This document shows positions 8,691-58,900 of a stretch of 64,000 nucleotides of DNA, piece by piece (the stretch's first letter is position 1; each line of letters starts with the position of its first letter). Below the pieces are notes generated by a model. It had not been told where the DNA came from and did not search any database. It saw nothing but the letters and a program-made list of their open reading frames with translations. The stretch is from Ricordea florida. Its lineage: Eukaryota; Cnidaria; Anthozoa; Corallimorpharia; Ricordeidae. The DNA lies in NCBI GenBank assembly GCA_949710005.1, contig OX453275.1:13078651-13142650 (forward strand), written 5' to 3'. Both the position numbers and the translations under genes were made by a program.

Positions 8691-9004
8691 AGAACATGCC
8701 TGAGCATGCTTAGGGAAGTATGGGATATAGACTTCAAGAGCACACAGGTACATGTCTGCATGTGCTTCATTCCAGAAGAGATTGATAAGCAAATTTTCCA
8801 CATAAGATCTATGAAGCAGACAGATTCATGATGGGAATATGTAAGGTTGTTGACTCAATGATCTTCATTAAGCGAGCCTACACCAAATCTGCAAAACAAT
8901 TCTGCAAGCAAAATTAAGGTATATCATTGCTAGAGTGATTTGTTTGTCTGTTTGTGGGAATGAAAAGGTTTAGCTAACTGGTAGGGATTTTTTACAAATT
9001 CCAG

Positions 9005-12771: not shown

Positions 12772-12808
<37 letters not shown>

Positions 12809-19422: not shown

Positions 19423-19454
<32 letters not shown>

Positions 19455-25400: not shown

Positions 25401-25461
25401 CCTACCTACCTACCTACCTACCTACCTACCTACCTACCTACCTACCTACCTACCTACCTAC

Positions 25462-25500
<39 letters not shown>

Positions 25501-31622: not shown

Positions 31623-32720
31623 CTACAGTTAGAAGGTTAAACCAGTTCAAATTGCATCACTGCATTCGTTCAGTCATAATTTCCATTCATTCCTTTCCTT
31701 AATTGTTCTTTCATCTTGTATTTTATTTGAAATTCTCATTTTTAAATGTTGATTTATTAAGATTTGTATGTAGATTTCATTAATTAATGTGCAAAACCTT
31801 ACAGTTATTGCCTATAACTTGATAAGCAAATGATATACAGAAAAAAAATGCCAGTGATGTCCTAACCTCTATCAAACAAGTTTCTCGGTATTTAACAATT
31901 ATTCGCCAAAGGCAAAGCAATTATCTGTGAATGCTCAATGTCTTGTTATTCACTGCCATCTTGTTAATGTACCGAAGAATGATGAGAATTTTGGCCGCGA
32001 GAATAGCTGACTTGCCTCTCTGTGACCTCTGTGCATGATCACGGGGTTATTTCCTTCAGTTTTATGTTGGTTGGGCACTGATGGTTCTTTATTTGCTTGA
32101 TTGAATAGATTGAAAAATTAATAGAAGGCAAATAGACTTATGTATACAAAACCTACAAAATTAACAAGAGGCAAGAGCAGTCATACAATACACAGCATTA
32201 TTGCTTTGTGGCCCTGCTGCAAGTTCTATTATTGCTGCACTTGTATTTTAAAACAATCTGTATCAGGGCTGTTTGCCATGGTACAAATAAGGCAAAGAAA
32301 GTCATGTGGCCTAGCATATGACTTTGCAGGATACAGCCTCTGCAAAAGTGATAATATTACAGAAGAAAAAAGGAAGATAAAGCACTGTAGTTATACAATA
32401 AAATGTTTATTTCCCATTTAAGGCCAGGCCAAAGTACATCACAACCTGATTGTTATCAAATGTTTTTCTGTCTAGCCCTCCTACTCAGTCAATAAGTACA
32501 TGTACATAGATTATTATTATTACCAGTAAATGTGTTTCTTTTTCCATTTCAAGGATTCCATGAATCCAGAACAGAACTGATTATCTCTGGAATTCTGTAT
32601 AACTCTGATCTACAGTAGTGAACGTTCTAGTTGGGAACCAAAACTTAATTATATGATAGATTAATGTGGTTTAGTTTCCTGATATTTGTTCTTTTTTTCT
32701 AATCTGTAGGTGCAGCAGAA

Positions 32721-33910
32721 ATGCTATATTCACCTCTCAAAGCGTTTTCCTGTTGTAATTTTAAAAGCTTTGAAAGTGAAAGTTCAGAACTTGACTTGTC
32801 ATGTGACTTTGCATCCATCTGCGACTACATAAAAGAGGAAACCAAAACAGACAGTCCTTGTCTGTCAGCCTTTGTTTGTATTTATGGTGAGCCAGGCTGT
32901 GGTCGCACCACATCCTTGCTTGAGATATGTGACAGACTGCTAAGAACTCAGTTTGTAAAAGAATCTGAAATCCTTGGAGTCCGGGTGCGGTCAGGATGCA
33001 ACTTGCAGTCGTTATGGAATCTGCTGATTGATGTTGCAAAAGAAAAGCAAGACAGAGATACTGCTGTGTTGTTGTCTCAGGCAACTGTCAAATTAGCTGA
33101 GAAATATGCTGCTGCTCAAGCTTTTATTTCATCAAACTTCAAGCTCATTTGCATTGATGATATAGATTCTGATGGTAGCAATGTATGGTCTCACCTGACT
33201 CAAATTTTGGCCAAACCAACTGGCTTGAGACTAATTCTTGCCTCGAGAAAAGATTGGAACTGTCTTGAAGAAATGCAGTCTGGGGAAGTACTTAAAGTGG
33301 AAGCAAAGGGCTTGACAAAAAGGTCCAGTATAAATTTCATTGCAAGTGAGTCCATTGTGAGCTTGAGTGAAGTACAGAAATCTAAGATTTACGTTTTGAC
33401 CGGTGGCAATCCCACAGCACTAAAGCTTTTCTTGAATCTTATAAGAGAATTCAAGTCATCTTCTGAGACTATTGACCAACTTCTGTCAATGTTTGGAGAC
33501 CAGCCCACATCTCAGATGCCATACACTGGCATTCAAAAAGTTCTGCAACTTTGCTTTCAGTTCTTGACAGGTGATGAAAAGCATGTTTTTTGTCAACTCA
33601 GTCAGTTACGAGAGCCTCTCCCAGCAATTGGAGTCACTGGAGAGGTTGACAGGCTTGTCGTGTTGGGTCTTGTGACCAAAGACGTCTTCACTGCTGCTAG
33701 TAATTCTAAGTCATCAGTCTTTACTCTTTGTGTGGCTTCCTGTTTGGGCTGGCCAACTTCATTTCATCCATGTTCCTCCTCTTCTGATGAAGTTTTGGAA
33801 AGGAAACCATTCAGCGTGTTTGGTGCATGGTTTTCTCTTCTGTCCCTGGAGCTCCGTGAGCTTGTGAGTGATGCAGAGAACAATGCCTGGCCATTTGTCC
33901 CTGAGAAATG
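32721..33910 (+). other. ALPK1: ALPK1 coding exon 1: STAND/NB-ARC-like NTPase joined to the start of the sensor domain
   Basis: This exon encodes residues 1-397. Walker A-like GEPGCGRTT is at 56-64, with arginine (CGC codon) where the lysine is expected. Walker B LICIDDID is at 142-149, followed by a sensor-like strand LRLILASRK (169-177), GLTKRSSINFI (197-207), and LTGGNPTALKLF (226-237), which matches the GxP motif of NB-ARC/NACHT proteins. A winged-helix-like part begins about 275 (FLTGDEKHVFCQLSQL). From 364 the frame passes directly into sequence aligning with human ALPK1 residues about 34-66 (LELRELVSDAENNAWPFVPE). With no intron between the two parts, mis-joining of two gene models cannot explain the fusion. 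Confidence 0.88.
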
Positions 33911-36900
33911 GTAATTTTAAGTAAAATAATGCTGTTGTTACATGTATATGCAGATAACTGAGTTTCTCTCACAATTTAGTCACTCGGTGTGGATTGCAAC
34001 ATTTCAACTACTACTGCTGGTCTTCTTTTAAAATAATGTCCTGTTTCTGTCGTTTTATTCCCCAGACATATCCTCAGGTTACCTTAGTTTGTAACTTTAC
34101 AAGTGATAGGGCTTGAGCCACGACTGTACTACCCCGAGGGCCTTGGAAGATTTGAAATAAGCATATTTTCTGAACATGCTAAACACTGTTTGTAGTATTT
34201 TCTTCAAACACTAAAAGCCTTATCTGTATTCATAATGAAATCAAGGGTTTTAAAGTAGTGGCTCTGAAGGAATAACTGCCTAGTCAGCAAACAGTTTGAT
34301 TACACTGTGTAATTACTAAGACCATTGTTTCTGACGGTGTATTTAAGGTTGTGTTGATGCTTGTTTTCTTAATTTCCAGGCAATATATCTCAAATGTTGG
34401 TGCTGCAGAGAGCTACAACATTAAAGAGCTTATAACCTCGAGGAACTCTTGTGCACCATCTTTCTCTGAGTTAGATATTTTGGAGGTAAAATATGCTTAC
34501 TGTATGTAATTTAATAAACATACTGTACAGTGTTTCATCACATGTCACTTAGAAGAGAGCAGAGAATAATTATTACGATGCACAGTGGAGTATTTTTGGC
34601 GAATTTAATATGTGTGAAACACATGTATCAAGCATTTGATAGCTCCTCAAAAAAAAATGATTCAGAGGAAATTGATGATGCAGAAATGAGCCATGTTTTA
34701 TCAGATATCCAAACATGCCATGGTGGTTGATTTCCTTTGTCTTTATCAACAGTAGTCCAGTATGCTTTATGGGTTTGAGCGCTTTGTGAACGCTTTGTGA
34801 TGCCTAGCTAATTTGGGTGATTACTGTACATATCTTTGAAAAGCTTAGCACGTAGCATGGAGTATGTATTGAGTTTGGATAGTTATTAAACCATAATTAA
34901 CTATAGTTAACCATGGCGACTGACAAGAAGCACGTGCATGGTCTTCACTGTTGTCTCGTCTCCCTAGTAATAACTCGACATGACGCCAGCGGCGGAATCT
35001 CGGTAACCTCTACACTGAAAAGAAAAACCGAAAAAACGGAAAGATGGGAGATCTAGCACCGAACAAAGCCGGTGTTCAACCAGAACAACCACATGTTGAT
35101 TACGTACTGAACGAAGCCGGCGCTCCTGCGGCACAACCCGCACAGCCAGTAAGTCAACAGATATGGTGGCAAATTATCAGGTCCCAACACCCGAAAAGTT
35201 CAGTTTCAAACCCGTAGATTGGCCTAGATGGATTCGACGTTTCGAACGATTCAGGACAGGGACGGGACTCAACCAAAAGGACGGCGAAAACCATGTAAAC
35301 ACGCTAATTTAGTCAATGGGCGAAGAAGTAGATGATATAGTCGTTTCGCTTGGCCTTACCGTAATAGGAAACTCAGCAACTGATACGAAGTCGTCAAAGG
35401 TAAATTTAAATCTTATTTCGTGGTAAAGAAGAACGTGATATTCGAACGAGCGAAGTTTAACCTCAGGAGTCAAAAGGACAATGAATCAGTGGATAATTTC
35501 ATCACCGATCTGTATTGTCTTGCGGAGTACTGTGAGTTTGGCATGCTCAAGGATGACTTGATACGCGATAGAATTGTCGTGGGCCTGAATGATAAAAAGT
35601 TCTCAGGGCAACTGCAATTAGATGCCAATCTAACCTTGCAAAAGACAGTTACAGAGGCACGGCAGTCAGAAACAGGAAGGAAGTAACAAACCTTTCAGCT
35701 GGGAAAAAAGACAGACGTATCGTCAGCGAGTTTGGATCAGATATCTAAAGGAAAGGCCAGAGATGCTTAAGTCAAAAACCTGAAGAAACCATCCAAACCA
35801 AAGAGTATGCCCGAGAAGAATGCTGAAGAAAAATGTTCAAGATGCCTTGGTCCTAAACACCCAAAGGGATTATTTCCAACTAGTGAATCAAAGTGCATGA
35901 ACTACCATAAAGAGGGCCATTGGAGTTGGGCAAAAGCTTGCAGGTCGAAACCAGACCAGAGAGTCGGCGAAGTTAACTTCTCGCAGCATGGAGAGGAAGA
36001 ATTCTTTCTCGGGAAACTCATCGAACTTGACACTGTTGCTGGGGACACCGGAAAGTTAATCAAGGCAAACGTCAAAATCAACGGACGTACGTTGGATTTC
36101 AAAGTGGACACTGGCGTAGAAAAAGCAACGGAAAAATAAGGATATGCGTTGACATGACCAAGCTGAACCAGTATGTGAAAAGAGAGAACCACCCTCTCTC
36201 AGCGTAAACACAGCACTGGGCAGACTGACAGGATCAAGAGTCTTCACCAAACTTGACGCAAACTCAGGATTTCGGCAAATAAAGCTAGCGTAGGAGTCGA
36301 GAGCACTGACCACTTTTATTACTTCTTGGGGACGTTTCTGCTTCAATTTGCTACCATTCGGCATTAGGTCTGGCTCAGAGAAATTCCAAAAGGACATGAA
36401 CCAGATCCTCCAAGAATTAGAGGGCGTGGAATGCAACATAAATGATGTCTTGGTTCATGGAAGAGACCAAAAGGAACACAAACTCCAGATTAGAGGCTGC
36501 TCTCGAGCGCTTGGAGGTAACGGGCGTGACACTCAATATCTTGAGAAATGTCAGTTCAGCACTGACAGAGTTAAATTCCTGGGACACATCATCAGTTCAC
36601 AAGGCATTGAAGCTGATCTAGAAAAGCTTCAAGCAATTGCAGACCTACCTCTCTCGCAGAACGTACAAGTGAGAGTCTTTCAAGGCATGGTGAATCAATT
36701 AAGCAAGTTTTCGGCTCACCTAGGGCATAAGACTAATAGCTTCAGAGATCTCCTTCAAAAGGGATGCCAGTGGACGTGGGGACCCGAGCAGCAAAGAGCC
36801 TTCGAGCAAATCGAAGCGGGCCTCACATAAGTCCCGTTATTGGCCCTGTATGACCCAAACAAAGAGACAGAATAGCCGCTGAAGCTTATTCCTATGGTTT

Positions 36901-39900
36901 GGGCGGAGTCCTCCTTCAACTTCAGGACGAACAACTGAAAACCAGTATCGTTTCTATTGAGAGCGATGACGCCGACAGAAACCAGATACGCGCAGATATA
37001 AAAAAGGAAGTTTTAGCTCTGACCTGGGACTGCGAACGGTCATGGGAGTACACAGTGCGAAAGTCGATTTTTGTGGACACTGACCATAAACCTCTTGTAC
37101 CGCCTCTAACTACCCACCCCTTGGTTCAGCTTCCACCCCGAATTCAGTGATTTCGGATGCGTATGATGAGGTTTCATTTCAAAGCAGCAACTCATATTCC
37201 AGGAAAGAAAATGTACATCGCAGACGCACTATCAAGACTCCAACTTCGAGATCACGATTGATGATGTAGAGGTGAAAGCACACGTCGCAAATGTCATCTC
37301 ATTTCTACTAGACTCGGACACGAAACTGCAGCAGATCATAAAAGCTCAAGAAGAAGATTCCGCTTGCAGATAGATCAAAAATCTCTGTTACGAGGGGTGG
37401 CCTAACAGTGCAGTGATACCCAACTTGCAGTACAGGGGCGAACTCTCTGCGGCACAAAACATCCTGCTGAAGGGATCCAGGATCGTCATTCCTTCTTGCA
37501 TGCGGCGATAGATTTTAGACAAGCTCCACGTGGGACATCAGGGGATTACCAAGTGGCGCGAGCGAGCCAAAAACTCCGTATGGTGGCCAGGTCTAAGCAG
37601 ATCCAGGACCCGATGCAGCAGTGCAGGACTTGCGCGCTACACAGAGACAGCAAGCTAGAACCGCTCATTGTGACAACCCCACCAGATCGTCCTTGGCAAG
37701 TGGTAGCCACAGACCTCTTTCAACTGTAAGACCTGGGCTACTTGACTGTTCTTCATTACTTCTCAAAGTATGTGAGAGTGGAAGCTGTGGATAAGACAAC
37801 AAAGTCAAGTGAAGTCATAAGGGCACTCAAAGCCATATATGCCAGACATGGGATCCTGGAGCAAGTGCGATCTGACAGTGGTCCTCAGAATTGTCGTACT
37901 TGGCTAGAGAATGGCATGCCAGTAGCAGCCCGAGATTGTCCCAATCGAATGGAGATGTCGAGCGTGGAGTCAGAACAGTCAAGAACCTCCTGACAAAAGA
38001 AAGAGAGCCTGCAAAATGCACTGCTCGCTTACAGATCGACACCAGTAGCATGCCAGTACCCCCCAGCCCAGTTATTGATGGGAAGACATCAGAAGTTTTG
38101 AACCAACTTTCCACACAGAGCTCTACCCGCAGAGGCCTGACCTGAAATCATTACGTGCATAAGAAACTGTGAGCAAGCTGAAACAGCAGGCAACCTTCAA
38201 TAACAGGCACAAATCCAAGCCTTTGACACCATTTGACCCCAGGACAGAAGTTCACAAGAAAGACCGGCAGCAACTGGGCATCATAGTAAAAGCTGCAGAA
38301 ACACCCCTATCGTACGAGATGGAGATATGTACCAGCATCATAAGAAGAAACCGTGCATATCTTACACCATTACCGGAGCAGAAGCAACAGCCAACTTCAC
38401 CGAAGGACACCAAGATTTCATCGCCTGTCAAAACTGACATTGCTGATGCTAATGCAGAAGTGCAGGTGCCTCGCACATCGCCTATTCTCAATAGTAGGCC
38501 CAAGAGAGTAAAACCATCACTTAAACTTAAGGAACGTTTAGGGTTAGCATGATGAGTACATGTTTCGTTAATTTTCCTGGATTCAGTTAATCCATGCCTC
38601 ATCAAATTTCTGTTTGTAATTTCAGTCTCGCGACTAAAAGGGGGATATGTTGTGTTAGCATACATGGAGTATGTATCGAGTATAGATAGTTATTAAACAT
38701 GGCGACTGACAAGAAGCACGTGGTCTTCACTGTTGTTTCCACTGTTGTCTCATCTCCCAAGTAATAACTCGACACGTAGCGCCTTTTATCACCTTTGTTT
38801 CGGGTTATATTTTTTAACAGGAGTGCCTTTTTCATGCATTAAATGAGAAGAGGTACAGGTCGGTGGCAGCTTTAGTGTTTGTGATGGACAGGTTCACGTA
38901 CTGGCAAGGTGGCTCTCAGAGAACACTTCAACTTATGGAGCATTTAAGCACGCACAGCCCTACCACCCCGATTGCCCCTCAACTGATCATACGTAAGGTC
39001 AGGGTGATGAAGAACTCTGGGGACTTACAAGGTAACTTAAGGTGTTATTTAGTAAATAAGGAGACAAATAAGGGTAAATAGATTCTTCCTCTGCTCCAGA
39101 TGACGTCAGCCTCTCTAGTCTACATTTTTTAAATAGCCATGAACACTGTCTTTATAAATAGTTTTGAGCACAGGAGTCTCAGTAGTTGATTGTTGAGTTT
39201 GATCGTTCCGGTGTAAATAGTTCTCGGAAAAGATCTCTTGTTAATAACGTTGTCTGACGTTTAGACAACCTTCACGGAAGTTACTATCAGTATAAAGTGC
39301 GTTGTGTATCTTCAGGTAGTGGTTTTTATGTCTGTCCATTTTATTCGTACTTACTTTGCAATTAATGTTGCTCAGGCGCGGAACAAGTTCTGGATGAACT
39401 TCTTGCTCAAAAAAACCAAGTAGGCAGTTGGGTGTACAAAGAGAAACATCACCATCAACTTGTTAGCGCGGTGTGCATTCAAATCAAGGGTGACATTCAG
39501 TACAACCTTGGACAGTGGGCAGAAGGAGCCCGACTGTTACTGGACTCTCTGATCTTATTCAGGTAAAGAAAACATTACAAGAGCTATATCACGAGTCTAC
39601 ATTAAATTTTTTAAGTACCATATAACAAGCATTTACATCAATATAACGTAAAAATAAAAAAAAAAATTAGAATTGTTGAAGAATCCTTTAAGACTCAGTG
39701 ATAAATCTAGGAAAATCGTATGTTGGGACTGTGGTCCCACTGGACTTGAATATGACGGGACATTCTTCATTTTTACGGGTCCAATTTTTTTAATGATAAA
39801 ACTGGAGTTAATATTAATTAGTAGCATCATGCATTTATTCATGATAAACTTTTTGTTGGTGAGTCATAGTTTATTTCACCTTCCTTCAAAATCTGTACAT

Positions 39901-42900
39901 CTTCCACTGATAGATCTTGAATAAACCCAATTAGGCTTCGGTGTCTTGACAAAGGTATATTTTCTAGTATAAGCCAATGAACTGACTTCATGAGCGCTAT
40001 AATTGCTCTGTCAATTTTTGCCGATGCCTTTGCTCTACACATTTTCATGTCATGGCGAAGAAGTGGGGCCTGAATCAGCATCATGTGATCAGCAAGGCTA
40101 GCATGTCTTTCTAGTGTTGATTTCCGGAAGTTTGTGCATTTTGATTTTTTCACCATGCCGTTATCTTTGTTGTTGTCTGTGCAAACTTTGCAAAACATGA
40201 AGTTTTCCTTACTGTCGTAAGCTAACCAGGGATACAATGTCATCCATCCAGAATGAAATGAACGTTTTCTTGAATGAGACTCGTCTTCAGAAACAACGTT
40301 GTTTACAGTAGTGTCCGTACTTTCCGTTTCGTTATTGTTTTTACCGAAACACAACGTCTTTTGACCTTTTTCGAGACGCCATACCTTAGTCTTCGGACCC
40401 ATGTTGTTATTTTGACAACCTCGCCATTACCGAAGACCGAACAGACCGAAGTGCGTGATTGGATGGTTTTGGTGTGTGTAGTCCAATCAAATGCGCGTTT
40501 ACATCTAGTACCTTATCCCACTCACCTTGACGCTTCAATGCCGAAAGAAAATGTCGGTCGATGTTAAGCGTGTGGTTGGCCTGAGGTTAGTCTTTGTTAA
40601 AATATAAAAATAGGGGAATTCCCCACTGAAGGAGATGCGTCCATCGTGACGCGACTAGCAGATTTCGATGCGTCATTTGGTTTAATTTTGCGACATTGTC
40701 GCAAGACGCACGCGTAGATTTATCACTGAAGACTGCTACACTCAAACTATTTTGTGTGTGGCTGTGGAAAGCAAGGATGAGTGTGGATTTAAACGTGTAA
40801 ATTTTCAGCTGCCCCTCTCTCTTTTCTTATCGCGTTTTGTTCCCGTGTCTTTTGCGAAACTGTGCAACAAGTAACCATAATTAATGGTTCCTTCCTTAAA
40901 AAGATCAATTTGTATCTTTTTGGGTGTTATCGATAAAGTACTTGTGCGAACAACGAACGTAAACATGGTTTCGCAACATCATTGACGAGGAGTCTTATAA
41001 TGCAGAGTTAAGGCCATTCCTCTTTCACATTCAGAATCAGGTAGAAAATGCATTGCTTGGTATGCAGTGCATTAATATACTCGCGCACAATGCATATGGC
41101 ATGTGCTCTGACTGTTGTTTTCATCTTGCCTTCAGCACTCTGCCCATCCCTGACAAAAAAGGCATAGCTTCCAGTCTTACTTTACTCGGTAACTGCCTCC
41201 AGCCGATGGCCCTTCATGAGTACATTCCGCTCGCGCAGTCTTATGGGTTGACCGCTGGCCATCCTCTGCTACAAGCGTACCTCTGCGCATGCGAGGCGGC
41301 CATGAGATCTGTGTTTACTCCACTGTTTTATGCCAGGCACAAGGTATTGTTCTTCATCCTTACCAGCCAAATGGTAGTCTCTTGCCAAACCACATCGCAC
41401 ACTCCCACATGGAGATGAGGTCTTTGTAACTTGTCACTTTCGGGAGAGATGTTTGTTTGGTAGACTCGACAGTAACTCAACACAACGAAGCACTGTTGGA
41501 GTGTGGTACATCGAGTTGTAATGTCCAAGGCTGAAGATGTTTTTGGGAAATTACGATGTTTCGAGGACAATTTTTATTTCTTCATAGGCCACAACACACT
41601 AAAAGCATTAAGACTACAACTTGAGCTTTAAAATTTGAACTAGGATTGAGGATACTTACTACAGTTTAAGAAGTTCAACAAAAACTGTTTCAATTTGTGT
41701 TCTTGATGCACCGACCACGGACACTGAGGTGAATAGTTGTTTTAGTATATACTAAAACAGTGAGATAATGTACACCAGAAAAAGAAAATGGCTTAAGAAA
41801 TGGAGGACTTCTCAAGTGACAATTCAACGCGGCTCGGATCGCTGTAAGGGATTTTTTGTTGTAATGACTGCCGTACGTCTCGTTTTCTCGCTGACACAAA
41901 AAAGTTTTATTTAGTTCTAGTGGCGACATTTTTTCAAATGGAGCTGCAAACGCTTTCTGTATTTGAAACCATTCTGTAAAAAAAATATAATTCAACTTTG
42001 GTTGTCGACATCGAATTTAGTCACACAAGATTAATTTGCATTTGTAAACAAAACCTTTCTTGTTGGCTTTTATCGATAAAACTCCGGGTTAAAAACACAA
42101 GCCATTACCTCTGAACACGGCCAAACCAAATTATTCAGTTGCTTTCTAGGAGTTTTCATGAACTGCTTCGTTGTTAATTTGGATGATTCCTTCGCTTGTC
42201 ACGGATGCAAGCCGGGAGGCCGTATTCACGCGGCGGAGCGAAATACTCGCAAGTAGCACAGGATATTCGGAGTTTGACTAGCCAATCAGAGCGCAACTTC
42301 AACGCTATCCACTGTTTTAGTATATGCTAAAAATAACTACCCACTAGTTTTTTTCCATTAAAACTTTCTTAAAAATTTCTTCATGTGACTAATAAACAAC
42401 TATCTTTTTTCTTACTATCCTTCAGTGTCGCGCTGGCGAATTTTTGCTTAGTTACTCGAATCTGATCCCGGATAAAGATCAGAGGCGGAAGCACGTGTTG
42501 ACATCAATTGATGACTTCAAAGAGAGCATTCAAGCTCACAAAGACATGCAGTCTCTAACAAGCCGGGAAGAGTTGTACGTGTTTGTTTGTGCAGTGTATA
42601 AAATAGGTCTCGCACACCAAGAGTTAGCCTTAAACGAAGAGATGCAACGTGGAAAACACATCGAGGAGATGTCAATGTTGATGTACGAGCATTACTGCTC
42701 GTTCACCGGCGTTATAGTATTGGATGATGGTATCAGAAAGTTAATTGCTCATTGTCTGAACTTTCTTGGATTGAAGCAGTTTAGTGAAGACGAACAAGCT
42801 CGGAGTTACCCTTCTGTTGTGAGTCATGTTGCGAAACCCAGAGAAACCTCTAGTGATGCGGGAAAGGCAAATTCGTTTGAGGAGATAAAGCCGATAGAAG

Positions 42901-45900
42901 CAGCTAGCCATCAATCAAAGGAAGAAGTCGCCAGCGAAGTTATGGATCACGCGACTCTTCTAAGGCTCCGCGAGGAGTCTCATTCTGTTACAGCTAACAT
43001 GAACGAGGTGCTTTACAAGGAGGCAGACTGTAATGCCATGGTGTCTTCCGCTGTGAGCCGCACTCGCAGCTCTTTGCTCTCTGTCGATCGTTCGGCCACA
43101 CCAAACATCATAAACAACAACGAACTTCAAGATGAGCCAGGAGCAACTGAGAAGTCAACGGAGGAAGATAACAAGATTGATTTTCGAGACTCGACAGTAG
43201 ACCGCGACTGCGTAACCAAGGAAACCTTGAGTGCCAGTGGACTACCTCATGAGAGAAACACCAAAGCTTCTTCCACCGTTTCGAGGACCATACCAACCGT
43301 GGACAGTGTGAACTGTGATGTAGTCAGCCAATCAATGGACCACGAAACTGTTGATTCGACGAGTGCAGAATCCCCAGCCGTGGATACGACCGCCCTTCAA
43401 AGTGAACTACAGGATTTTAAGCTGGATCGAAGTCAACGAGTCTACGGTAAATATTGGTCATGTTTCACTTGATCCATCCTCCGCATCCACAACCAAAGAC
43501 CACAGTACCGTAAACATCGATAGAATACTTTTGGTTACTGAACAGTTGAAGTGTCTACAGTTACATTTCCTTGAAAATCTGCTCGTAAGTGAGTTAACAG
43601 TCCGAAGTCTGCTGCTTGATTTTTTCAAATCAGGTTTTTGCTGTTGCAGACCAGCAAGCAGTTATTTCGCGTCAAATTTAACATGGACCACGGCAGTATT
43701 ATTACATCCTGGACGTGCGTAGTTGGGCAAACGGAGGTTAAGGAACATAAGCAATAAACAAGCAGAAATTCAAGCCTTACATGTTTGAATACCATACTTA
43801 CGAGACAGGAGTTTTGATCCCTTTGAGCCAATCAGGTAGAAAAGCGCAATACTGATCTTGATTAAAGGAAAACTACAACGAGGTGGACAAGCAGATATAG
43901 TTTGATGCAACTCTGGTTTGAAATAATGAATATGACGTTTCGACACTCCTGTCTAGTGTCTTCTTCAGGGATGATTTGGCAAGGCTGTGAAGCTACTTTT
44001 ATGCCCGCTATAGATGGTGTTGCTTACATTACCAACAGGCGTCGGTCAATAAACCGCCATCATCGGGGTTCAATGAAGCGTGGGCGCTATTGATATGCCA
44101 ATTTTCGAAACAATGTCTTTGTAATGCTGGAGCTTACTGAACTGGACCAAGTGGTCAGGAAAAAGGCCTCAAATTTGGCTCATCTCCGGTGTAATATAAT
44201 TTATTCACACAACTTACGTAAAACAAAGCACACAAAACATTTTTAACAATGTACCTAACGCTAACTAACAAAGAAAATGAATAAATTATATTACACCGGG
44301 CGTGACCCTCGAATTTGCCGTCACACCTAACAGAATTTTAGCTGCTGAGATCAACGCTGTGGTAGAGGAAGGAATTTCTCAACTTAAGCTTGATTTAAGG
44401 TTTTGGTTAGAGCAGATGTCAGCAGCAATTTGAGACGTGCCAAACCTCCTCCCAAAACATCAATCCTGATGTGATACGCACAGATTCGTTTTGTCAGCAG
44501 ACAAAGGCAGCAGTGACACAAGAGAAAATCAGGAAAGAAAACATAACTCCGTCTGATATGATAAGGGGACAGAATCTCTTTTTAGCGCAGAATCTATTTA
44601 TATCTCGTTCCATGGCTGCGTGGTTTCCACATGGCGCATTGAAATTAAAACCACGTGATGAGAAGGACATCAGCCATAGGTCAGTTAAAATAGTTTCCAG
44701 ATCTAAAAATAGATTCTGTCCCCTTATCGTAGTAAGAGAACCCAGTATGGAAGATACGTTCTCTTGCCTCATTTTCTCTTGCCGGTGCTTATTTACACCT
44801 TGTGGACATAAAAGGAGTCTCACAGCCTTGCCCAATCACCCCTGAAGAAGACACTAGACAGGAGAGTGGAAACATCGGGTCGATGAATTATAACTTTTTA
44901 AGTTACATTCATTGGACTAACCATTCCCTAAATCAGGATTTCGTAATTGTTGCAGGTGCCATTGTGTGGAGGTTTGACTTTATACGCAACAAATGGAGAT
45001 CTGAAAGGACGCTGGCGTTTGTTGGTAAGATGCTGGAGCTGAAAAAGGGAAAGAAAGGGGCACAAAGAGACGCGTTTATGGTAGAGTTTGTGAATCAGGA
45101 AGATCCTCTTGCGAAGTGAGTGCTCATTTATCCGCAATCATGCCTTTCAGAACTGCTATTTTAATGACCAAGCTTGTTCAGTCCTGATAATATTGGCTGG
45201 ATATTGGCCTCTTTCTTTGGTAGCATATTTCATACTTCAGCACTCAAATGACCTCGGCCAATATCCTGTCTTATGCTTCGTCACTATACGTGCATTATTG
45301 ACCAAGGGTGAGGTCAAAATGACTGCATATTGGCCAAGTTCTTTATTTGCGAGGTCGATGAAATCGCCATATAATAATATACAATTAATGTAGGATCCCG
45401 AAGGAGACAGTTAGTTTTGTTTTCCCGAGAGTGCTGATGTTTCCCGAGACGAAGTCGAGGGAAACATCAGAACTCGAGGGAAAGCAAAACTAACTAGTTT
45501 CCCGAGGGACCATGCGTTAAGTGCTTTGCTATATATTTAGACCTTTCCCTTAAACAAAATGTAGCAAAAACAAAGATGGCACAGCTGGCGCGCGGGCAAC
45601 AACTGCGCAATTGTATCCCAGTTGGGATGCATTTAAATTTGATCGAGGCCGCGTGACCAAGAATCAACCAATCACGATGGTCAATATCTGGCCATCTTAA
45701 CCCAATGCGTGGTCAATATCTGGCCATCTTAACCCAATGCTTGGTCAATATCTGGCCATCTTAACCTAATGCTTGGTCAATATCTGGCCATCTTAACCCA
45801 ATGCTTGGTCAATATCTGGCCATCTTAACCCAATGCTTGGTCAATATCTGGCCATCTTAACCCAATTCTTGGTCAATATCTGGCCATCGTAACCCAGTGC

Positions 45901-48900
45901 TTGGTCAATATCAAGCCATCTTAACCCATTGCTTGGTCAATATCTGGCCATCTTAAGCCAATGCTTGGTCAATATCTGGCCATCGTAAACCAGTGCTTGG
46001 TCAATATCTGGCCATCTTAACCCAATGCTTGGTCAATATCAAGCCATCTTAAGCCAATGCTTGGTCAATATCAAGCCATCTTAACCTTTTGCTTGGTCAA
46101 TATCTGGCCATCTTAAGCCAATGCTTGGTCAATATCTGGCCATCTTAACCCATTGCTTGGTCAATATCTGCCCATCTTAACCTCATGCTTGAAATGGCCA
46201 ATATCAAGCCATCTTGACCCCTTGCTTCGTCAATAACCAATGTACTTTCCCTTCCAAAACAATAGACATCTAATCTTGTCAACTGAATCTTAGGTACGTA
46301 GCTAAATGTTACAGAAAACCGGAGGGTGTACAGCAGTATAAACAAGATGTGGTTTGCCAGATGACAGCACGTTACTACGTGGGACTGTTTAACCAGCACC
46401 TATACCACGCAGGTAACTCAAGTTTACCCCAGTTTACACAGTGATTTTACTCTGCTACACTCGAATGAGTACAGATATAACTAGATATCACCCAGTAGAA
46501 ATAAACTCCACCCGAGGATTTTCCATCGCGTTATTCGTCCACTGATCTCTGTTCAGGAATATTGTCGCGTGCTAGAATCCGTCCCCGAAATTTTCCTTAG
46601 AGTCGGTTACACCTCTAATGGGCAATTATGAGGAGATATTGCCGGAAAACAGATACGAGTACTTTGTTGGTGTAAAACCTTTGAACACTTCAGCATCTGC
46701 CGTCACTGAGGAAAACAAATTGTAGGAACATTCAAATTAAGGATCAAAATTGCTTCGCCTCGGTGATAATTACAATTTTCTGGGACGAATGTTTAGTGTC
46801 AGTTGGGCTTTACTTACCGGTCAAATCGAAGCTTCAGCATTTCTCCCCCCCCCCCTCCCTGGGCATACCCCGAGCATTTGAATTTTTGGTCTTTCGTCTG
46901 TTCCCCCCTCTCCGGGTCAAAGAGCTGGTCAAATGTCCTACCATAGGTCCGTTTCAGGGAAATGAAACAGGAAACCATACTACGTTATGAGCTTGAAGTA
47001 ACGCCGAGTTAACACTTTTGAATACACGAGAATCACAAAGTTCTTCTGTAACAAGTTGTTTGTAAGCCAGGCTGAAACGAAAGCGCAAACTTTTCCTTTG
47101 AAGTCTTGTACTGTGACGGCTTCTGCGGCTGTTTTTGCCTCGTGGAGAGGACAAACAAGTAAACATGGAATCGAGGCTACGTGTTCAATCCCCCACCCGG
47201 AATGTTTGGTGGACAAAATTCCCTACCCCTGACAAGGCCAAGTGATCAAATGCCCGGGGTATGCCCAGGGGGAGGGAATGATTCTGTAATATTTTTTCCG
47301 TATCATTTATCAAATACAATTAACAATTACAAACAATTACAACTAACATTACCTGCCATTAGTAAATATATGATGATGAATAAAATAGGAGAATCACTTT
47401 CAAGAATTCCTTCACTAGATAGTTGGTAGGATTTTTTCCATTTCTCATAATGCTCGAGAAGTTTACCCTGTGTAGTCGCTTAATGTCGCTCTATTTGATA
47501 GACTGTTTTAATATTGACTAAGAAGACTGGCAAGGACGGATTCGTACTGTTTAACTTGCACCTATAGATGTAAAACTTGGCCATAACAATCAAGTGATTC
47601 AGAATTACTTTGTCCTTATTTTCATTGGATACACCAAACAAAATATTCATTGAAGTTATACCTTCTAAATGTATGTTTTGTTTCATAAGCTAAGATGTGA
47701 AGACTTTGCAAAAGCGTTCTGTTATGGTACACTTTGGCAGTAAATGTTCGAGGGATTCAACTTCCTTCTTGCAAAAGGAGAACAATAGTGAAACAATCAT
47801 TTTAAGGTTACTGAATGCCTTGAGGAGTGTCTCGCGTAGAAGTGATGTAGCGCGTCGAGCTTAAACTGTAGATACCTGAACCCCGATATCAATATAAAGC
47901 TTATAAAGCTGGCTATAAAACTACCAAGCATTTTAAAATAAAATGAGATGTGGAATTTTTCACGATCTCTAGCGAGCGTCCGAATCACCTATTCAAAGCT
48001 ACAAGTCATGGTTGATAGATTGGCTTCAGAGATTTTTAAACCCTCGGCAAAGAATATGCCTGTATTGGATAACAAGTCTCCGATTTTAACCAGTCCAGCC
48101 GAGAAAAGGTGTTTTTCGATTACTATCCGAGGCTTTTTGTACGACGGTATTCTTATTATTCCAAATGATCTGATTCACAATATCATCATAGGTATTTACT
48201 GTTGAAGATACTAACTGCGACCACGCCTCAAGACATTCGCTATAAAAAGATGGAATGTGAATTTGTGAGTATCAAAATTGAAAAAAAGAATGAATTTTCC
48301 ACCTGCGCTCGGAAGAAATTAATCTGAAATCACCTTCAAGGAGTTTTCGTTACCGTTTTCCTTATCCTTTGAGCTGTTATCTAGCATTTTTAGTCCCCCG
48401 TCCTCAATATCATTAAAAGGTGCTGTACGCTTTATTTTATCGTTACCCTGCCAAGTAAAGGTATAGATCAGGTTATTCATTTCTTTAACAAGATCATCAG
48501 AGGTTGAAATTAATGACGCCTTACTCATAAATTTTGGTATAACAATTTGTATTTTTTGGAGTAAGTGTTTAAGTGTTTATTGAACGGATTGAAAGATTAA
48601 GTCGAAATTTGCATACTTCCTTGATGTTCTGTGGTAATCGAAATATGTGCCTAATATCTTAATCGATTTCACGATTTTTTGGTTAAATTCTTCTTGCCAA
48701 AGTCGTTTCGGACCAATAGCAAATAGCTCAAGAGATTTAAATAGTTGGGGATTAGAATTTTTATATTGTAAGAAACGGGTCAAATCATCAGCAAATGCAG
48801 TTTAATTTCTTTGTTGTTGATTTTTATCCCCTTTATATTGCGGTCTTGTCTGATTAGACCTGTAAGTATCTCAAGAGCCAAGATAAAGAGTAAGGGTCAC

Positions 48901-50591
48901 AATGGATCAGCTTGCCTTACCACCCGCCGCACATAAAATAGATCTGTAGTAAAGCCATTATTGAGGACACTGCTCGATATATCTGTGTAAAACGTTTTAG
49001 TCCGTTGCATGAAGTATGGTCCGAAATTAAACTTCTCCAGAACTTTAAAGAAAAGTGAATAATCACGTGAGTCAAACGCCTTTTCAAAATCAGTTGCTAC
49101 CAATATACCAGATCTTTTTGTTATTTCTGCAAATTCTAATATGTCATCGATTGTCCTAGAGGCATCAAATATTGATTTTTCCTTTATAAAGCTGTTCTGG
49201 TTATGATGGATAATTTCTGAAAGTATTGGTTCTAACCTCGTAGCCATCACCTTTGAAGCAATTTTCACATCTATATTAATAAGTGAAATAGGTCGCCAGC
49301 TCTCAATATATCTCTTGTCTTTACCTTTGTTTTCTAAAAGAGTAACCATAGCCTGCTTTTGCGAACAAGACAACTGACCATATTTGTGGGAGAAGTTCAG
49401 AGAGTCCACGAGGCATTTCTCTAAAAGCGGCCAAAACATTAAACTCAACATTTAATCCATCATTTCATGGTGTCTTGTTCTTGTCAAACATTTTTAAAAC
49501 TCCAAACAATTCTGCGCTAGTGACCTTCTTATCTAATAATTCCTTCTGTTCATTGGACAGCTTTTTGATATTAAATTAAGGAAATTATCTTTAGATATCA
49601 AGTCCAGACTATAAGAATTTTCGTCGTAAAGCTTAAAGTAGAAATGTTGAATCTCTGTCAATATTCGTTTTAGCTCTCTTGTACACTCATCTTTAGGCAA
49701 AGGCGCACACGAGCCAAAGGCCCACAGTGCCGGAGCGTATCCCGGTTTCAATAGCATGAAACACCTAGGAGTATTATTACTCCTCCGTGGATGGGATGCT
49801 AGTCCATCGCAGGGTCACCCCCAGCATTGTATCGCTGGTACCCATTTATACACCTGGATAGAAAGACAGTGTAGAGTAAAGTTTCTTGTTTAAGGAAACA
49901 ACACAGTGCCATTACCAGGGCTCGAACTCCAAATCTCCTGCTCGGAAGTCTGACACGCTAACCACTACACTACTGTGCCTCTTACACTCATCTTTATAAA
50001 CATGTAATTGTCTTTGCAGCTCTTTTTAGTTTTGGCGGGGAAGATGTAGAAGCTTCGATATGACCGGTTCATTAATATCTGATTGACCTCCGCTCAAATA
50101 GTGCTTACTATCAAGATAATTGTGTCAATAACAAAATGATCGAATATGATTGATCGTTAACAGCCCGTATTTATGACTTAATTGGCTTTTTCAGGACCAA
50201 ACTGTCCTATTGACCTGTCCGATTACAAACATTAATTTTATATCGGACAGGCCAAAAAGGACAGTTAAGCAGCCAATGAAAATGAAACACTTCATGCCAT
50301 TAATCAATAACCTTTAACTGCCTAGCCCATCCTAGCCAATCAAAATCAAGGAAAATTTCTGAGGTGAGCAAGTTGACAGGTTCAGATTGAAAGCAAACAT
50401 GGACGAAATTAACTAGTCCAATGACTTTTATTCAGATACGTTTTCCTTAGATTTTGACCCAATTAGTACTTCCTGAGTTTCTCGCATTTATTTATTATTG
50501 ACGCAATTAATTTGTAATTGGACCTCATGTCGTACAATTCATATACAATACAGTTCGTGCTCGTAATTTCAAATTAATTTGAAATTAATCC

Positions 50592-50625
<34 letters not shown>

Positions 50626-51472
50626 AGTCCTATTACCATTACTAATCGCAAACCGTGAAAGATAGAACATTTCAGCCCCCCACCCCCCCCCCAAAAAAAA
50701 AAGCACAATGATGAATAAAAATGGAGAAAACTTCGAATAAGTGCTTGTAAAGGTGATCGCTGTGCGTGAAACGTGCGAAGAAGGCTTAGGCAAAGTCTTA
50801 GCCCGCCTTCACGTGCAATCGCAAAGATCTTGTGCTAAAATAACAAGTAAACGTGTTGAAAACTTTTGTTCGTCGCTACAACATTTATGCGAACTGCTCG
50901 TAGATGACGATGGATGTTACAGTTTTCTTTCTCCAAAAATTCAGTGCTTGATGTGCGCGCACTTGGCCAACTGTTGTCTTACTCGTTCTAGAATGTAAAG
51001 ATCTCTTATCCCGCTTTAAATCGTTTTTCCATCTTTAGGTGTCAACGTTGGTCACGTCCAGTTCTTGCCAGTGTCGTTACTGCAGTTGAATGGGGACAGC
51101 GAGTCGTCTGGAGGCATATACAACGTTGAACCTTACATGGCTGGAGAATTTGTCAAACTTACTAATAATTTCGATTGGGCTCGATCGGATCATAAATTCT
51201 CCGACCTTCTTTTAGCATTCAGTCACTTCTCATACCAGGCCTCCAACGGCCTGTTGATGATTGTCGACATCCAGGGCTGGACACCGGTTGATATGAATGG
51301 TTGCACATTCCTCACGGACCCGCAGATTCACTCAGTGGTTTACAAGTGTTTCGGAAGTGCAAATCTGGGAAAAGCTGGGATTGACAGCTTCTGGAATCAG
51401 ATCCATCCCAGCTGTAACAGCATCTGTGCAAAGTTAGGTTTGGCGAGGGCAAATGTGGTGAAACAGCAATAA
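32721..51472 (+). CDS. ALPK1: Alpha-kinase 1 with an N-terminal STAND NTPase (1211 aa, 9 exons)
   Basis: Vertebrate ALPK1 binds bacterial ADP-heptose in the cytosol and phosphorylates TIFA to activate NF-kB. Exons: 32721-33910, 34380-34485, 38821-39031, 39376-39562, 41136-41343, 42426-43446, 44956-45115, 46294-46412, 51039-51472; GT/AG throughout, phases continuous. Residues about 1-350: P-loop NTPase. Residues 364-634: ALPK1 sensor (WPFVPEKWQY 390-399, VFVMDRF 451-457, TPIAPQLIIR 481-490, SAVCIQIKGD 533-542, LPIPDKKG 567-574, FTPLF 625-629). Residues 635 to about 970: a start resembling human (LLSYS), then a poorly conserved Ser-rich linker. Residues about 975-1211: alpha-kinase with lysine in YVAKCY (K1032), EPYMAGEFVKL (1098-1108), VDIQGW (1143-1148), LTDPQIHS (1159-1166), NLGKAGI, and zinc-site residues H1130, H1190, C1193, C1197. 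The start is the first ATG after an acceptor, with A at -3. Human ALPK1 has no NTPase. Introns hold an LTR element, a hAT-like ORF, a minisatellite and a LINE. Confidence 0.93.
34856..38774 (+). mobile_element. Gypsy-type LTR retrotransposon, degenerate, in ALPK1 intron 2
   Basis: Direct repeats of about 112-127 bp bound it: 34856-34980 and about 38648-38774, both ending AGTAATAACTCGACA. CGTAG flanks both sides (34851-34855, 38775-38779) as a likely 5-bp target duplication, although the left LTR seems to lack about 15 bp at its start. A purine tract (AAAAGGGGGAT) precedes the right LTR. Between them, in sense order: a gag-like region (35160-35690), a zinc-knuckle-like stretch and a protease-like GRTLDFKVDTG segment (35800-36140), reverse transcriptase fragments (LPFGIRSGSEKFQKDMNQIL near 36350), RNase H-like and integrase-like pieces to 38140, and a tail to 38550. 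Many stops and frameshifts show it is inactive. Its end lies 41 bp upstream of ALPK1 exon 3. Confidence 0.88.
39839..40402 (-). CDS. hAT/ZNF862-like zinc-finger protein fragment (187 aa), intronic
   Basis: An uninterrupted ATG-started frame inside ALPK1 intron 4, antisense to ALPK1. Residues 73-110 contain FMFCKVCTDN followed by a KCTNFRKSTLERHASLADH stretch, the C-x2-C...H...H arrangement of TTF/BED-like zinc fingers at the N-terminus of hAT-derived proteins such as ZNF862 and ZMYM relatives. The part before it (SGWMTLYPWLAYD) is also typical of that group. The catalytic hAT region and dimerisation domain are absent; sequence downstream (below 39839) shows no continuation. It is most likely a truncated transposase rather than a host gene. 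Whether it is expressed is unknown. Confidence 0.6.
   Translation of the reverse strand: MGPKTKVWRLEKGQKTLCFGKNNNETESTDTTVNNVVSEDESHSRKRSFHSGWMTLYPWLAYDSKENFMFCKVCTDNNKDNGMVKKSKCTNFRKSTLERHASLADHMMLIQAPLLRHDMKMCRAKASAKIDRAIIALMKSVHWLILENIPLSRHRSLIGFIQDLSVEDVQILKEGEINYDSPTKSLS
41736..42345. mobile_element. Inverted-repeat element with TTTTAGTATA ends
   Basis: The left end TTGTTTTAGTATATACTAAA (about 41734) and right end ACTGTTTTAGTATATGCTAA (about 42313) share a motif that is itself palindromic. AGCCAATCAGAGCGCAAC lies at 42280. It resembles the bodies of the 12.0 and 61.0 kb elements but has no palindrome here. It lies in ALPK1 intron 5 and ends about 80 bp before exon 6. Confidence 0.6.
43917..44890. 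repeat. Facing repeats with degenerate hammerhead-like motifs
   Basis: On the plus strand at about 43936-43970 the sequence is the reverse complement of CTGAAGAAGACACTAGACAG then GAGTGTCGAAACG; at about 44843-44880 the same motif reads forward (CTGAAGAAGACACTAGACAG, GAGAGTGGAAAC). They therefore face each other across about 900 bp, which contains two further inverted repeats (44189/44284, TAATATAATTTATTCA type; 44567/44728, ATAAGGGGACAGAATCT type). Such motifs resemble decayed hammerheads of Penelope-like elements, but an extra base after the core makes activity unlikely. It lies in ALPK1 intron 6, ending just before exon 7. Confidence 0.5.
45400..45530. repeat. Long palindrome (TTTCCCGAG type)
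   Basis: The arms GTTAGTTTTGTTTTCCCGAG and CTCGAGGGAAAGCAAAACTA pair, with inner arms CTGATGTTTCCCGAG / GAGGGAAACATCAG and apex ACGAAGT. The apex resembles those of the palindromes at 31.3 and 61.2 kb. It lies in ALPK1 intron 7. Confidence 0.8.
45679..46238 (+). repeat. 32-bp minisatellite, about 17 copies
   Basis: The unit starts GGTCAATATCTGGCCATCTT and continues AACCCAATGCTT. Copies differ by a few recurrent changes (TCTGGCC versus TCAAGCC; AACCC versus AAGCC). Degenerate units in reverse orientation (TATTGGCC-type) occur at about 45160-45345. It ends 56 bp before ALPK1 exon 8. The spacer-free tandem layout excludes a CRISPR array. Confidence 0.95.
46840..47280. mobile_element. MITE with about 30-bp inverted ends (CCCTGGGCATACCC)
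   Basis: The left end has CCCTCCCTGGGCATACCCCG then AGCATTTGA; the right end has TCAAATGCCCGGGGTATGCC then CAGGGGGAGGG, complementary with one or two mismatches. The 360-bp interior is non-coding. It lies in ALPK1 intron 8. Confidence 0.8.
47480..50090 (-). pseudogene. LINE retrotransposon, L1/Tx1-like, degenerate
   Basis: On the minus strand from about 50090 downwards the fragments keep the order of a LINE reverse transcriptase. About 49450-48900 encodes SWRPISLINIDVKIASKVMA, then SFIKEKSIFDASRTIDDIL, DFEKAFDSRDYSL and a QADPL variant of the QGDPL motif. After a frameshift, AFADDLTRFL (about 48770-48800) holds the catalytic aspartates. About 48530-48320 encodes a C-terminal-type segment (FTWQGNDKIKR, DGGLKML). 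Stops and frameshifts separate the blocks, so it is dead. A SINE interrupts it at 49696-49982. It lies antisense in ALPK1 intron 8. Confidence 0.85.
49696..49982 (-). mobile_element. tRNA-derived SINE (family B) inside the LINE
   Basis: A 14-bp perfect target duplication, TACACTCATCTTTA, flanks it (49682-49695 and 49983-49996). In minus orientation the tRNA-like head contains GTGTAGTGGTTAGC and a B-box-like GGAGTTCGAGCCCTGG; the body includes CAGGTGTATAAATGGGTACC. The tail runs through GGCTCGTGTGCGCCTTTGCC. It is the same family as 56583-56874, in opposite orientation. Confidence 0.93.
50150..50650. repeat. Inverted-repeat sequences of the GGTAATAGGACTGAGTGG family
   Basis: A small hairpin CAAACTGTCCTATTGACCTG / CAGGCCAAAAAGGACAG lies at 50200-50265, followed by AGCCAATGAAAATG and GCCAATCAAAATCAAG. 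Near 50600-50645 a GTACTCCACTCAGTCCTATT segment is the reverse complement of the arm of the element at 19142. Boundaries are unclear. It lies in ALPK1 intron 8. Confidence 0.45.
50741..50998 (+). other. Unassigned 85-codon open frame in ALPK1 intron 8
   Basis: The frame opens after a stop just before 50741 and has no ATG at its start, so it would have to be an exon or a fragment. Its composition looks protein-like (VENFCSSLQHLCELLVDDDG, then SPKIQCLMCAHLANCCL), unlike the surrounding repeats. It is not needed by ALPK1: exons 8 and 9 join in phase and the protein aligns with human ALPK1 without it. It lies 40 bp before exon 9. It could be a relic exon of another gene or an alternative exon; I do not recognise it. 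Confidence 0.3.
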
Positions 51473-55961: not shown

Positions 55962-58900
55962 TTAGTATTGTGGTGGCGAAAATTGACTGGGTCCAGTGTC
56001 TTCCTCTGGAGTAGCCTCCACTGGTTGATCAGAGAAGGGTTTGTTCTGGTATGGGTCCCCCTCTCCTTGAGATGTTGGGAATGACGCATAAGGAGATGAG
56101 TATGAGTCACCTGGTAGGTCATGTCTGGAATATTCAAACTCTGACAGAAGGTGGCGATACTTAGCAAATGCCATGATGGCTAAGCCAACCTGCAAAGAAT
56201 TGATCACAAAACAAAAACAGATTATTATGTATTGCTTTGGGACCTAACATGATGTAATATAGAAATTCAAAAGTTTTCTTACACATACACCAACAAAAAT
56301 AAGTGAACGATGAGTAAGTAAAGCACTACTGTGCCACCTGCAGTGATGTATATGTACAGTATGTGCAAGCTCTCCTAACCAACCCTCCCCTCCTGTCACC
56401 CCACAATCCCCTGCTATCAAGACATTTTTTTCAAATTGGACTCTCTGAAATGGAATTCCCTGTACTCCATGTACTGGAATTGGTTATACTGATGTCATAA
56501 ATGCAAAATACATGTAACCAAGGTTTAACTCTAACAAATAATTTTTTTCAACACTACCAATTGTTATGTAGTGGTAATATAGTGGAGGCACAGTAGTGTA
56601 GTCGTTAGCATGTCGGACGTCCGAGCAGGAGGTTTGGAGTTCGAGCCCTGGTGCTGGCACTGTGTTGTTTACTTAGACAAAAAACTTTACTCCACACTGT
56701 CTCTCTCCACCCAGGTGTATAAATGGGTACCAGTGATATAATGCTGGGGGTGACCCTGCAATGGACTAGCATCCCATCCAGGGGGGAGTAACAACACTCC
56801 CAGGTGCTTCATGCAACAGAAAGCGGGATAAGCCCCGGCCGTGTGGGCCTTAAGGCCCGTGTGCACCTTTAACTTACCAACTGTTACCACTGGAAGTTTA
56901 ACATTATGCTATACTGAGCATTTTCCCTCCAACGAAAACCCTTCAAACCCCAATAAAGCATCCAGTGTAAATGTTGCAGGTCATTTTGTTCCTTAGGTCA
57001 ATTTGTTTCAACCTAGGTCAACTTGTTTCAACCTAGGTCAACTTGTTTCAACATTGATCAAGTTGTTTCAACCTAGGTCAACTTGTTTCAACTTAGGTCA
57101 ACTTGTTTCAACTTAGGTCAACTTGTTTCAACATTGATCAAGTTGTTTCAACAGGTCATTGTTTTATCAATACAGAAACAACCGTAACCACTTTACAAAT
57201 TATGCTAACATTGGGCCTAAAAATGTTTTTTTTAGGTCAAATTAGTCCTAAAGTTAGCTTAAAACGATGACCTGTGAGCTGTGTTTTGTACCTGCCCCAA
57301 CCTGACCTAGGTTGAAACAACTTGATGAAGGTTAAAACAACTTCATGAAGGTTGAAACAAGTTGACCTAGGTTGAAACAAGTTGACCCAAGGAACAAAAT
57401 GACCTGCGTATGGAGGTATATCTATGACAAAATGCAATCCTGTGTAAATTAAATGGTTATTGCCAAATCATGAATGCATCAAACCGAAGCTGAACAGAAA
57501 ACACCCATTTCAGGTATCATGTACATCATAACGCAAAAAGGCATAACACAAATAGAGAATGCGTTATGCCTTTTCGCATTATGCATATTTGCGTGATGAC
57601 TTTTACCATTATGCCTTCTGCATTTTGACTATCTGCGCAGTGCTCGAAATTAGCGGTTGCCCGGTTGCCCGAGACAACTAAAACTTCGTTCGGGCAGCCA
57701 TTTTTTAGGAAAAATAAAGGGCTAGTTGCCCGAGAAGAATTCGTCGGACAACCTAAGAAAAAATTGAAGTACTTACATTACTGTGATGCGTAACAGAATA
57801 AAGAACAGAAGCTATAAACGTGAGACACGAAAACAGCTCTAAATGCGAGGTTTATCTCCAGATACTGATAGATGGATGAGGATCCATGACAATTTGTAAA
57901 ACAAAGGAAATGGAAGGTTGTAACCGTTAACTGAACGCCGTTCGTTCAATTCAATAAGCCACGATTTAAGCCACGATAAGCTTGTTGTTTTGTCTTCAAA
58001 CCCAGCCCTCCTCGAAATATTATGGTGCATGCGTATTTGGTCTTTTCTGGGGCATTGTGGGATCAGTGCTTACAGATATTTCAAGCGACGATTTTGAGGG
58101 AAGAGTAATAATTGTTGGCTTTATAATGAAGTAAATGGGTGGGTTATACTTACTTTGTTTGAAATATTAAATATTTATTACTCGCAGCAATTCGAGAACT
58201 ATGAAAACAGAGGCATTCTGATAGGGGTATTATTTCTCTCGTCAAACCCCACAACTAGGCAAAAATCATAGAACATGTTAAGGGCAACCAAGTCCTTATC
58301 AGGGCATCCAAAGTCAAGGGCCAGGTTGTCCGGCATTTGCCATAAAGACAACCTGGATTTTTTTCTAATTTCGAGCACTGTCTGCGTGATACATGAAACA
58401 GGTGTCTGCTATTCAGCTTCGGCTCGATGCATTCCTCATTTGGAAATTAATTCATTACAGAGGACTGCATTTTGTCATAGATATACCTCCATACCTGCAA
58501 TATATACTGCTTACAACTGTAAGACACTGGATAGCTGATATCATTGTGAATGAGTTAGAATGTTGTCAGAAGAGATTTTTACTACATTACAGGTACTTAA
58601 GGATTACCTATCAGTAAAAAGTATTCTTAATTGCTGTTTGTAGAAAGTCTGGTTTTAAAAGACAATGCAAACTACAAATTAACTCACCCAGGTAATAATT
58701 GAGAAAAAGGAAAAGGCAATAGCTGCTTGACAGTTGTTAACTTGTGTTGTTGTAAATGAAGCCTTGTTGTCTTCTCTCCTCCACATATCAGCAAGGTAAC
58801 AAAAACCAACAAACCAAAGGAAACACCAAAGGGCAGAAAACCCCAAGTCCCCAATAGTAAGATATTTCCTAGTGTCAGGGTTATCAATGAGGTCAAACTG

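Follow-up and report, generated by a model that had tools for sequence, protein, structure and literature searches.

The closest described relatives of the gene considered here are the vertebrate ALPK1 proteins (PDB 5z2c, 8zd3 and 9j4p), in which a helical sensor with an ADP-heptose pocket is combined with an alpha-kinase whose substrate is TIFA. According to a 2025 paper, TIFA and ALPK1 are both absent from invertebrate lineages (PMC12457700). Two further points of comparison are the NB-ARC STAND ATPases Apaf-1, CED-4 and the plant NRC NLRs, and a STAND protein with a tetratricopeptide sensor (PDB 6mfv) that, by its title, has no kinase. We analyzed a 64-kb window of genomic DNA from Ricordea florida (contig OX453275.1 of GCA_949710005.1; "the window" is this whole stretch, and positions refer to it), which contains an ALPK1 gene. 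As read from its sequence, this gene fuses an N-terminal NTPase-like module to ALPK1, the fusion is present in three cnidarian proteins, the pocket residues and the kinase are conserved, and a TIFA-like gene lies 18 kb away. The cnidarian protein thus has the same seven pocket residues, helical sensor and alpha-kinase as vertebrate ALPK1 and, unlike the vertebrate proteins that are informative at the N terminus, the module; it differs from 6mfv by its kinase. The predicted fold of the module resembles that of Apaf-1, CED-4 and the NRC proteins, but in the cnidarian records compared (isoform X3 in both Pocillopora and Nematostella) no domain, such as the N-terminal death-fold, TIR or CC effector of an NLR, stands ahead of it, the effector is a C-terminal alpha-kinase, and the Walker-A lysine is substituted.

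Nine exons, all with GT-AG borders and compatible phases, gave a predicted protein of 1,211 amino acids (aa), with the following parts.

32721..33910 (+): exon 1, with the start codon, a degenerate NB-ARC/AP-ATPase-like domain (aa ~20-345), a short linker and the first ALPK1 residues up to WPFVPEKW (from the frame, profile and structure matches)
32886..32912 (+): Walker A-like GEPGCGRTT (aa 56-64), with Arg62 in place of the canonical lysine (three-protein alignment)
33144..33161 (+): Walker B LICIDD (aa 142-147; three-protein alignment)
33402..33422 (+): GLPL-equivalent GGNPTAL (aa 228-234; three-protein alignment)
34380..34485 (+): exon 2, where the ALPK1 sensor domain begins, with the remainder of WPFVPEKWQY (PDB match)
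38821..39031 (+): exon 3, sensor domain with the equivalents of human R116, R150 and R153 (PDB match, residue comparison)
39376..39562 (+): exon 4, sensor domain (PDB match)
41136..41343 (+): exon 5, part of the sensor domain, including PDKKG (human D231, K233; PDB match, residue comparison)
42426..43446 (+): exon 6, last part of the sensor domain, then the poorly conserved linker (PDB match, alignment)
44956..45115 (+): exon 7, first part of the alpha-kinase (PDB match)
46294..46412 (+): exon 8, alpha-kinase with Lys1032 (PDB match)
51039..51472 (+): exon 9, remaining alpha-kinase and stop codon (Alpha_kinase, 114.2 bits for 51020-51472)

Exon 1 sits in one open frame of 403 codons from stop to stop (32703-33914), which carries GEPGCGRTT, LICIDDID, LTGGNPTAL and WPFVPEKW. 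The exon runs into the final codon of the last of these motifs (aa 390-397), lacking only its third base, and the join between the NTPase-like domain and ALPK1 is therefore independent of the predicted splice. An acceptor-like TAG at 32708-32710, ahead of the ATG, and a frame open from there make an upstream coding exon possible. A sequence-only reading of this DNA had proposed a single exon with P-loop motifs ending in WPFVPEKW, followed by eight in-phase exons, and the model agrees with both proposals.

Searched against PDB chains, the predicted protein matched the human ALPK1 sensor at residues 372-701 (5z2c, chain positions 41-368; E value of 3.6e-51) and the kinase domain of human ALPK1 at residues 965-1208 (8zd3_B; E, 1.4e-50). 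Myosin heavy chain kinase A was the next kinase, with a far higher E value of 1.4e-18. These matches indicate that the gene is an ALPK1 orthologue, as the sequence-only reading had held. Lys1032 (YVAKCY) was found opposite human K1067, on a numbering that assumes that 8zd3_B begins at residue 959. K1067 is the residue altered in the K1067M constructs of PMC10723048. The ligand site was compared at 14 sensor positions between the window protein, its counterparts from Pocillopora and Nematostella, and human ALPK1, and the equivalents of F61, Q67, R116, R150, R153, D231 and K233 were identical in all three cnidarian proteins. R153A and K233A block activation of human ALPK1 by ADP-heptose (PMC10723048); F61, Q67, R116, R150 and D231 are reported as ADP-heptose pocket residues in the 5Z2C work. 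Since seven of these seven pocket residues are conserved, sensing of ADP-heptose is the likely input of the cnidarian protein.

When exon 1 was scanned alone against Pfam, AAA_22 scored 35.0 bits (cut-off, 27) and NB-ARC passed narrowly at 24.3 bits (cut-off, 23.5). A marginal NB-ARC/AAA-type profile was listed for the module in each of the three cnidarian members at E values up to 0.1. The pattern G....G[KRC][ST] was matched in a single one of the 106 open reading frames of the window (stop to stop, at least 80 aa), namely, that of exon 1, with a hydrophobic-DD strand downstream of the match. The predicted model of the module displays an AP-ATPase-type P-loop core and a helical domain, with predicted local distance difference test scores (pLDDT) mostly between 70 and 92 over aa ~20-260, and its best structural matches are plant NRC2/NRC1, Apaf-1 and CED-4; the core is thus predicted to adopt a STAND ATPase-like fold, and the NB-ARC/STAND-like domain of the sequence-only reading is upheld. 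A winged-helix-like sequence is recognizable by eye, and several structural alignment ranges extend into it, although the model has a pLDDT of less than 50 there. In all three proteins, Walker B hhhhDD is retained as ICIDD or ICVDD, as is the NP within the GLPL-like motif, and GEPG, DD and NP contain invariant residues. No recognizable paralogue of the window module was found in the Ricordea florida genome among the six candidates scored.

Three protein searches, which reach relatives sharing short exact words and two of which scored the best 7990 candidates by shared words, yielded 24 distinct homologues. The module was present in two, Pocillopora verrucosa isoform X3 (P0001) and Nematostella vectensis LOC5511752 isoform X3 (P0003), whose records start at the same place as the window protein and have the same domain; the same fusion does therefore occur in other cnidarians, one of the groups in which the sequence-only reading had suggested looking for it. 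It was lacking from 15 vertebrate proteins, while the remaining 7 homologues were too short at the N terminus to tell. Vertebrates account for 18 of the 24, and those 15 have no room for the module, since they begin with a Met only 31 to 88 residues ahead of WPFVP; of the three uninformative ones, two (P0022 and P0023) do not contain the motif and the third (P0024) has no initial Met. Among the matches listed, there was no invertebrate beyond cnidarian-like proteins. Four transcript-like clusters (P0002, P0009, P0010 and P0011) all start at nearly the same point inside exon 3 and may represent alternative 5' ends or shorter isoforms, or else contig breaks or ends at a splice branch. The end of the exon 1 cnidarian profile aligned with human ALPK1 residues 5 to 65 (E, 3.7e-4), the part convincing by eye being human 41 to 65. 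Identity between the window and Pocillopora proteins was 65/130 (aa 49-180) and 55/165 (aa 181-345) in the module, 245/369 in the sensor and 156/243 in the kinase; the corresponding values for Nematostella were 40/129, 36/151, 158/305 and 130/240.

We also searched the whole 538-Mb genome (48 contigs) with human TIFA and obtained two matches at an E value of ≤1. The better one, C4:13148411-13148818 (+), lies just outside the window, 18,289 bp past the ALPK1 stop (E, 0.029; 24% identity; query 28-161). Compared with the PDB, the 309-aa frame of this exon retrieved TIFA first (E, 4.8e-4) and TIFAB next (E, 0.0067), all others having E values of ≥0.03, and it scored 34.5 bits for Pfam FHA (cut-off, 20.7). 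The gene shares the FHA domain with TIFA and TIFAB but differs from them by a long C-terminal tail and by phosphate-binding residues that match only in part: of the FHA residues R51, K88 and N89 of TIFA, the R51 column is kept. Close to the end of the tail is PVQET, presumably a TRAF2/3-type motif. In TIFA, the N-terminal phospho-threonine is Thr9. The genome contains at least 12 FHA matches at an E value of ≤0.001; for 12 such matches, the number expected at this distance from ALPK1 or less is ~0.0008 (0.007 for 100 matches), and the single best TIFA match would land within that distance with a probability of ~7e-5. The human TIFA gene adjoins ALPK1. On these comparisons, the TIFA-like gene is likely, but not certainly, orthologous to TIFA, the part analyzed starting after the first exon and the K88-N89 columns reading E-T.

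Taken together, these data lead us to favor, with somewhat better than even confidence, a cnidarian ALPK1 orthologue in which an NB-ARC/AP-ATPase-type STAND-fold module, either retained or acquired, stands directly ahead of the heptose pocket and acts as a scaffold or in autoinhibition. The protein would probably be an intracellular sensor kinase for bacterial ADP-heptose: binding of the ligand to the helical sensor would release the alpha-kinase, and TRAFs would be engaged once this kinase had phosphorylated the TIFA-like FHA adaptor encoded nearby. With its altered Walker A, the N-terminal module would serve mainly as an autoinhibitory or multimerizing scaffold, a role comparable to that of the nucleotide-binding region in an NLR, and would probably not go through full ATP cycling.

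Several observations weigh against this interpretation. The Walker-A lysine is Arg in the window and Pocillopora proteins and Cys in Nematostella, so that none of the three matches GxxxxGK[ST]; the sensor-1 Arg is limited to the window sequence; and no MHD-like histidine was seen in any of the three in the aligned stretch (about window aa 325-348), which was placed by eye. NB-ARC is only 0.8 bits above its cut-off on exon 1 and did not appear among the matches with E values up to 0.1 in a scan of the full-length protein. The exon 1 model falls below a pLDDT of 50 over aa 288 to 395, and the full-length Pocillopora model, with a mean pLDDT of 60, is too weak for domain packing. As four clusters start in exon 3, isoforms without the module may exist. 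In the ligand site, the other seven of the 14 positions vary or fall outside the Nematostella record, which lacks the stretch holding positions 237 to 299: the K232 equivalent is Lys/Thr/Lys (window/Pocillopora/Nematostella), and in the window and Pocillopora proteins T237 is replaced by Ser, S277 by Gln and A299 by His, with Y254, T292 and F295 kept. Finally, the match to TIFA is by itself a weak one, the gene was read without its first exon, part of the upstream stretch reads N, and the E-T at the K88-N89 columns was read by eye from the PDB alignment.

The nature of the module is where the alternatives diverge. A full NLR-like switch, in which ADP/ATP exchange in the NTPase would drive resistosome-like oligomers that gather the kinases, would agree with the AP-ATPase-like predicted fold, with the retained Walker B DD and GLPL-like NP, with the winged-helix-like sequence and with the order of NTPase-like domain, helical sensor and effector. 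In P-loop enzymes, loss of the Walker-A lysine cripples hydrolysis and often binding. The R/R/C substitution at this lysine and the lack, by eye, of an MHD-like histidine make a classical ADP/ATP switch doubtful, as they do hydrolysis and cycling of nucleotide by the module, and, with the sensor-1 Arg confined to the window protein, we consider the full switch unlikely; judging from the motifs, the module would more probably act as a scaffold or in autoinhibition. Of the NLR-like receptor suggested by the sequence-only reading, the layout stands while the nucleotide-driven control is doubtful, and "nucleotide-driven oligomerisation" as it was written is not supported, given the lysine substitution, which that account did not mention. 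Conversely, the module could be an inert relic that is tolerated without a role in signaling, in line with its lower conservation than that of the sensor and kinase between the window and Pocillopora proteins, but we regard this as improbable: the frame is open and the motifs are recognizable in all three proteins, residues at GEPG, DD and NP are invariant, and ~340 neutral codons would not be expected to remain open. Hardly credible is a gene-model artefact, with a separate NTPase gene abutting ALPK1 and joined to it by prediction only; the Ricordea florida join was read from genomic DNA alone, but WPFVPEKW shares exon and frame with the NTPase-like domain, and two other cnidarian records have the same join. 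We thus favor a degenerate STAND-like module serving autoinhibition or assembly, and we class the gene product neither as a functional STAND ATPase nor as an NLR.

The origin of the module is a separate question. A cnidarian-specific gain onto a vertebrate-like ancestral ALPK1, which is compatible with any of the readings above, is a possibility to which we give slightly less than even weight: room for the module is lacking in 15 of the 18 vertebrate matches, while 3 begin too late to judge, and the invertebrate matches listed are all cnidarian-like. The alignment of human residues 5 to 65 with the end of the exon 1 profile looks instead as if human ALPK1 had been shortened from a fused form, but it also fits a gain and decides little. 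Another reading, to which we also give slightly less than even weight, is that ALPK1 may be the remnant of an ancient STAND/NLR-type receptor: its helical ADP-heptose sensor would be that of a STAND protein whose ATPase decayed in cnidarians, with loss of the Walker-A lysine, and disappeared in vertebrates, and the ALPK1-TIFA module, whose genes are still linked in this genome, would predate the cnidarian-bilaterian split.

Two neighboring features were recorded within the window.

8974-26919 (+): eEF2K gene, matches within this range, upstream of ALPK1
58679-59083 (-): MARVEL-domain exon, synaptogyrin-like by eye (68.7 bits)

The two alpha-kinase genes, eEF2K and ALPK1, are arranged head to tail on the same strand, and an ENTH-domain (epsin-like) gene lies on the minus strand upstream of eEF2K. 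The interval from ALPK1 to the TIFA-like gene contains the MARVEL exon and ~5 kb reading N. A (CTAC)n array of 205 copies occupies 24682-25500. Retroelement remains are found within the large ALPK1 introns: a decayed element in intron 2 (34.9-38.8 kb; RVT_1, 27.5 bits, just below the cut-off of 29.6), with a related ~40-bp sequence at both of its ends, and a reverse-transcriptase fragment in the last intron (48897-49448, minus strand; RVT_1, 60.6 bits). Intron 4 harbors a reading frame with a zf-C17orf113 zinc-finger match (39839-40423, minus strand; 47.3 bits) and intron 7 a 32-bp minisatellite of 16 copies (45678-46191).

Elsewhere in the genome, a 4.6-kb element is 99.9% identical on two contigs, at L011:3327-7927 (G000:C2) and L012:2892-7491 (G000:C10). 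It has terminal inverted repeats of ~364 bp (88%), an integrase-core reading frame of 413 aa (PF24764, 66 bits) and an intact reading frame of 437 aa for an alpha-kinase (PF02816, 116.5 bits), and is apparently, judging from these features, a DNA transposon that has moved recently and includes a protein kinase gene. Seven other loci were compared with L002: four were at least 99.5% identical over 2.4 to 3.6 kb, one was 93.9% identical and two gave no match. Of the 45 alpha-kinase matches recorded genome-wide, 27 cover nearly the whole domain, many with stops.

A cnidarian ALPK1 orthologue is already in the databases, the Pocillopora record being titled "alpha-protein kinase 1-like," and the precomputed Pfam list for both cnidarian records gives the alpha-kinase alone. 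We found no description of the ALPK1/NB-ARC-like fusion in the literature searched, whose coverage mostly excluded subscription papers and bioRxiv preprints. A cnidarian ALPK1 with a conserved pocket and a linked TIFA-like gene would date the sensing of bacterial sugars to before the cnidarian-bilaterian split and would give the ALPK1 route a structural link to the NLRs, in hosts of dense bacterial communities. Such a protein would also offer a ready system for studying how a sensor of the alpha-kinase type is kept inactive and brought into its assembled state.

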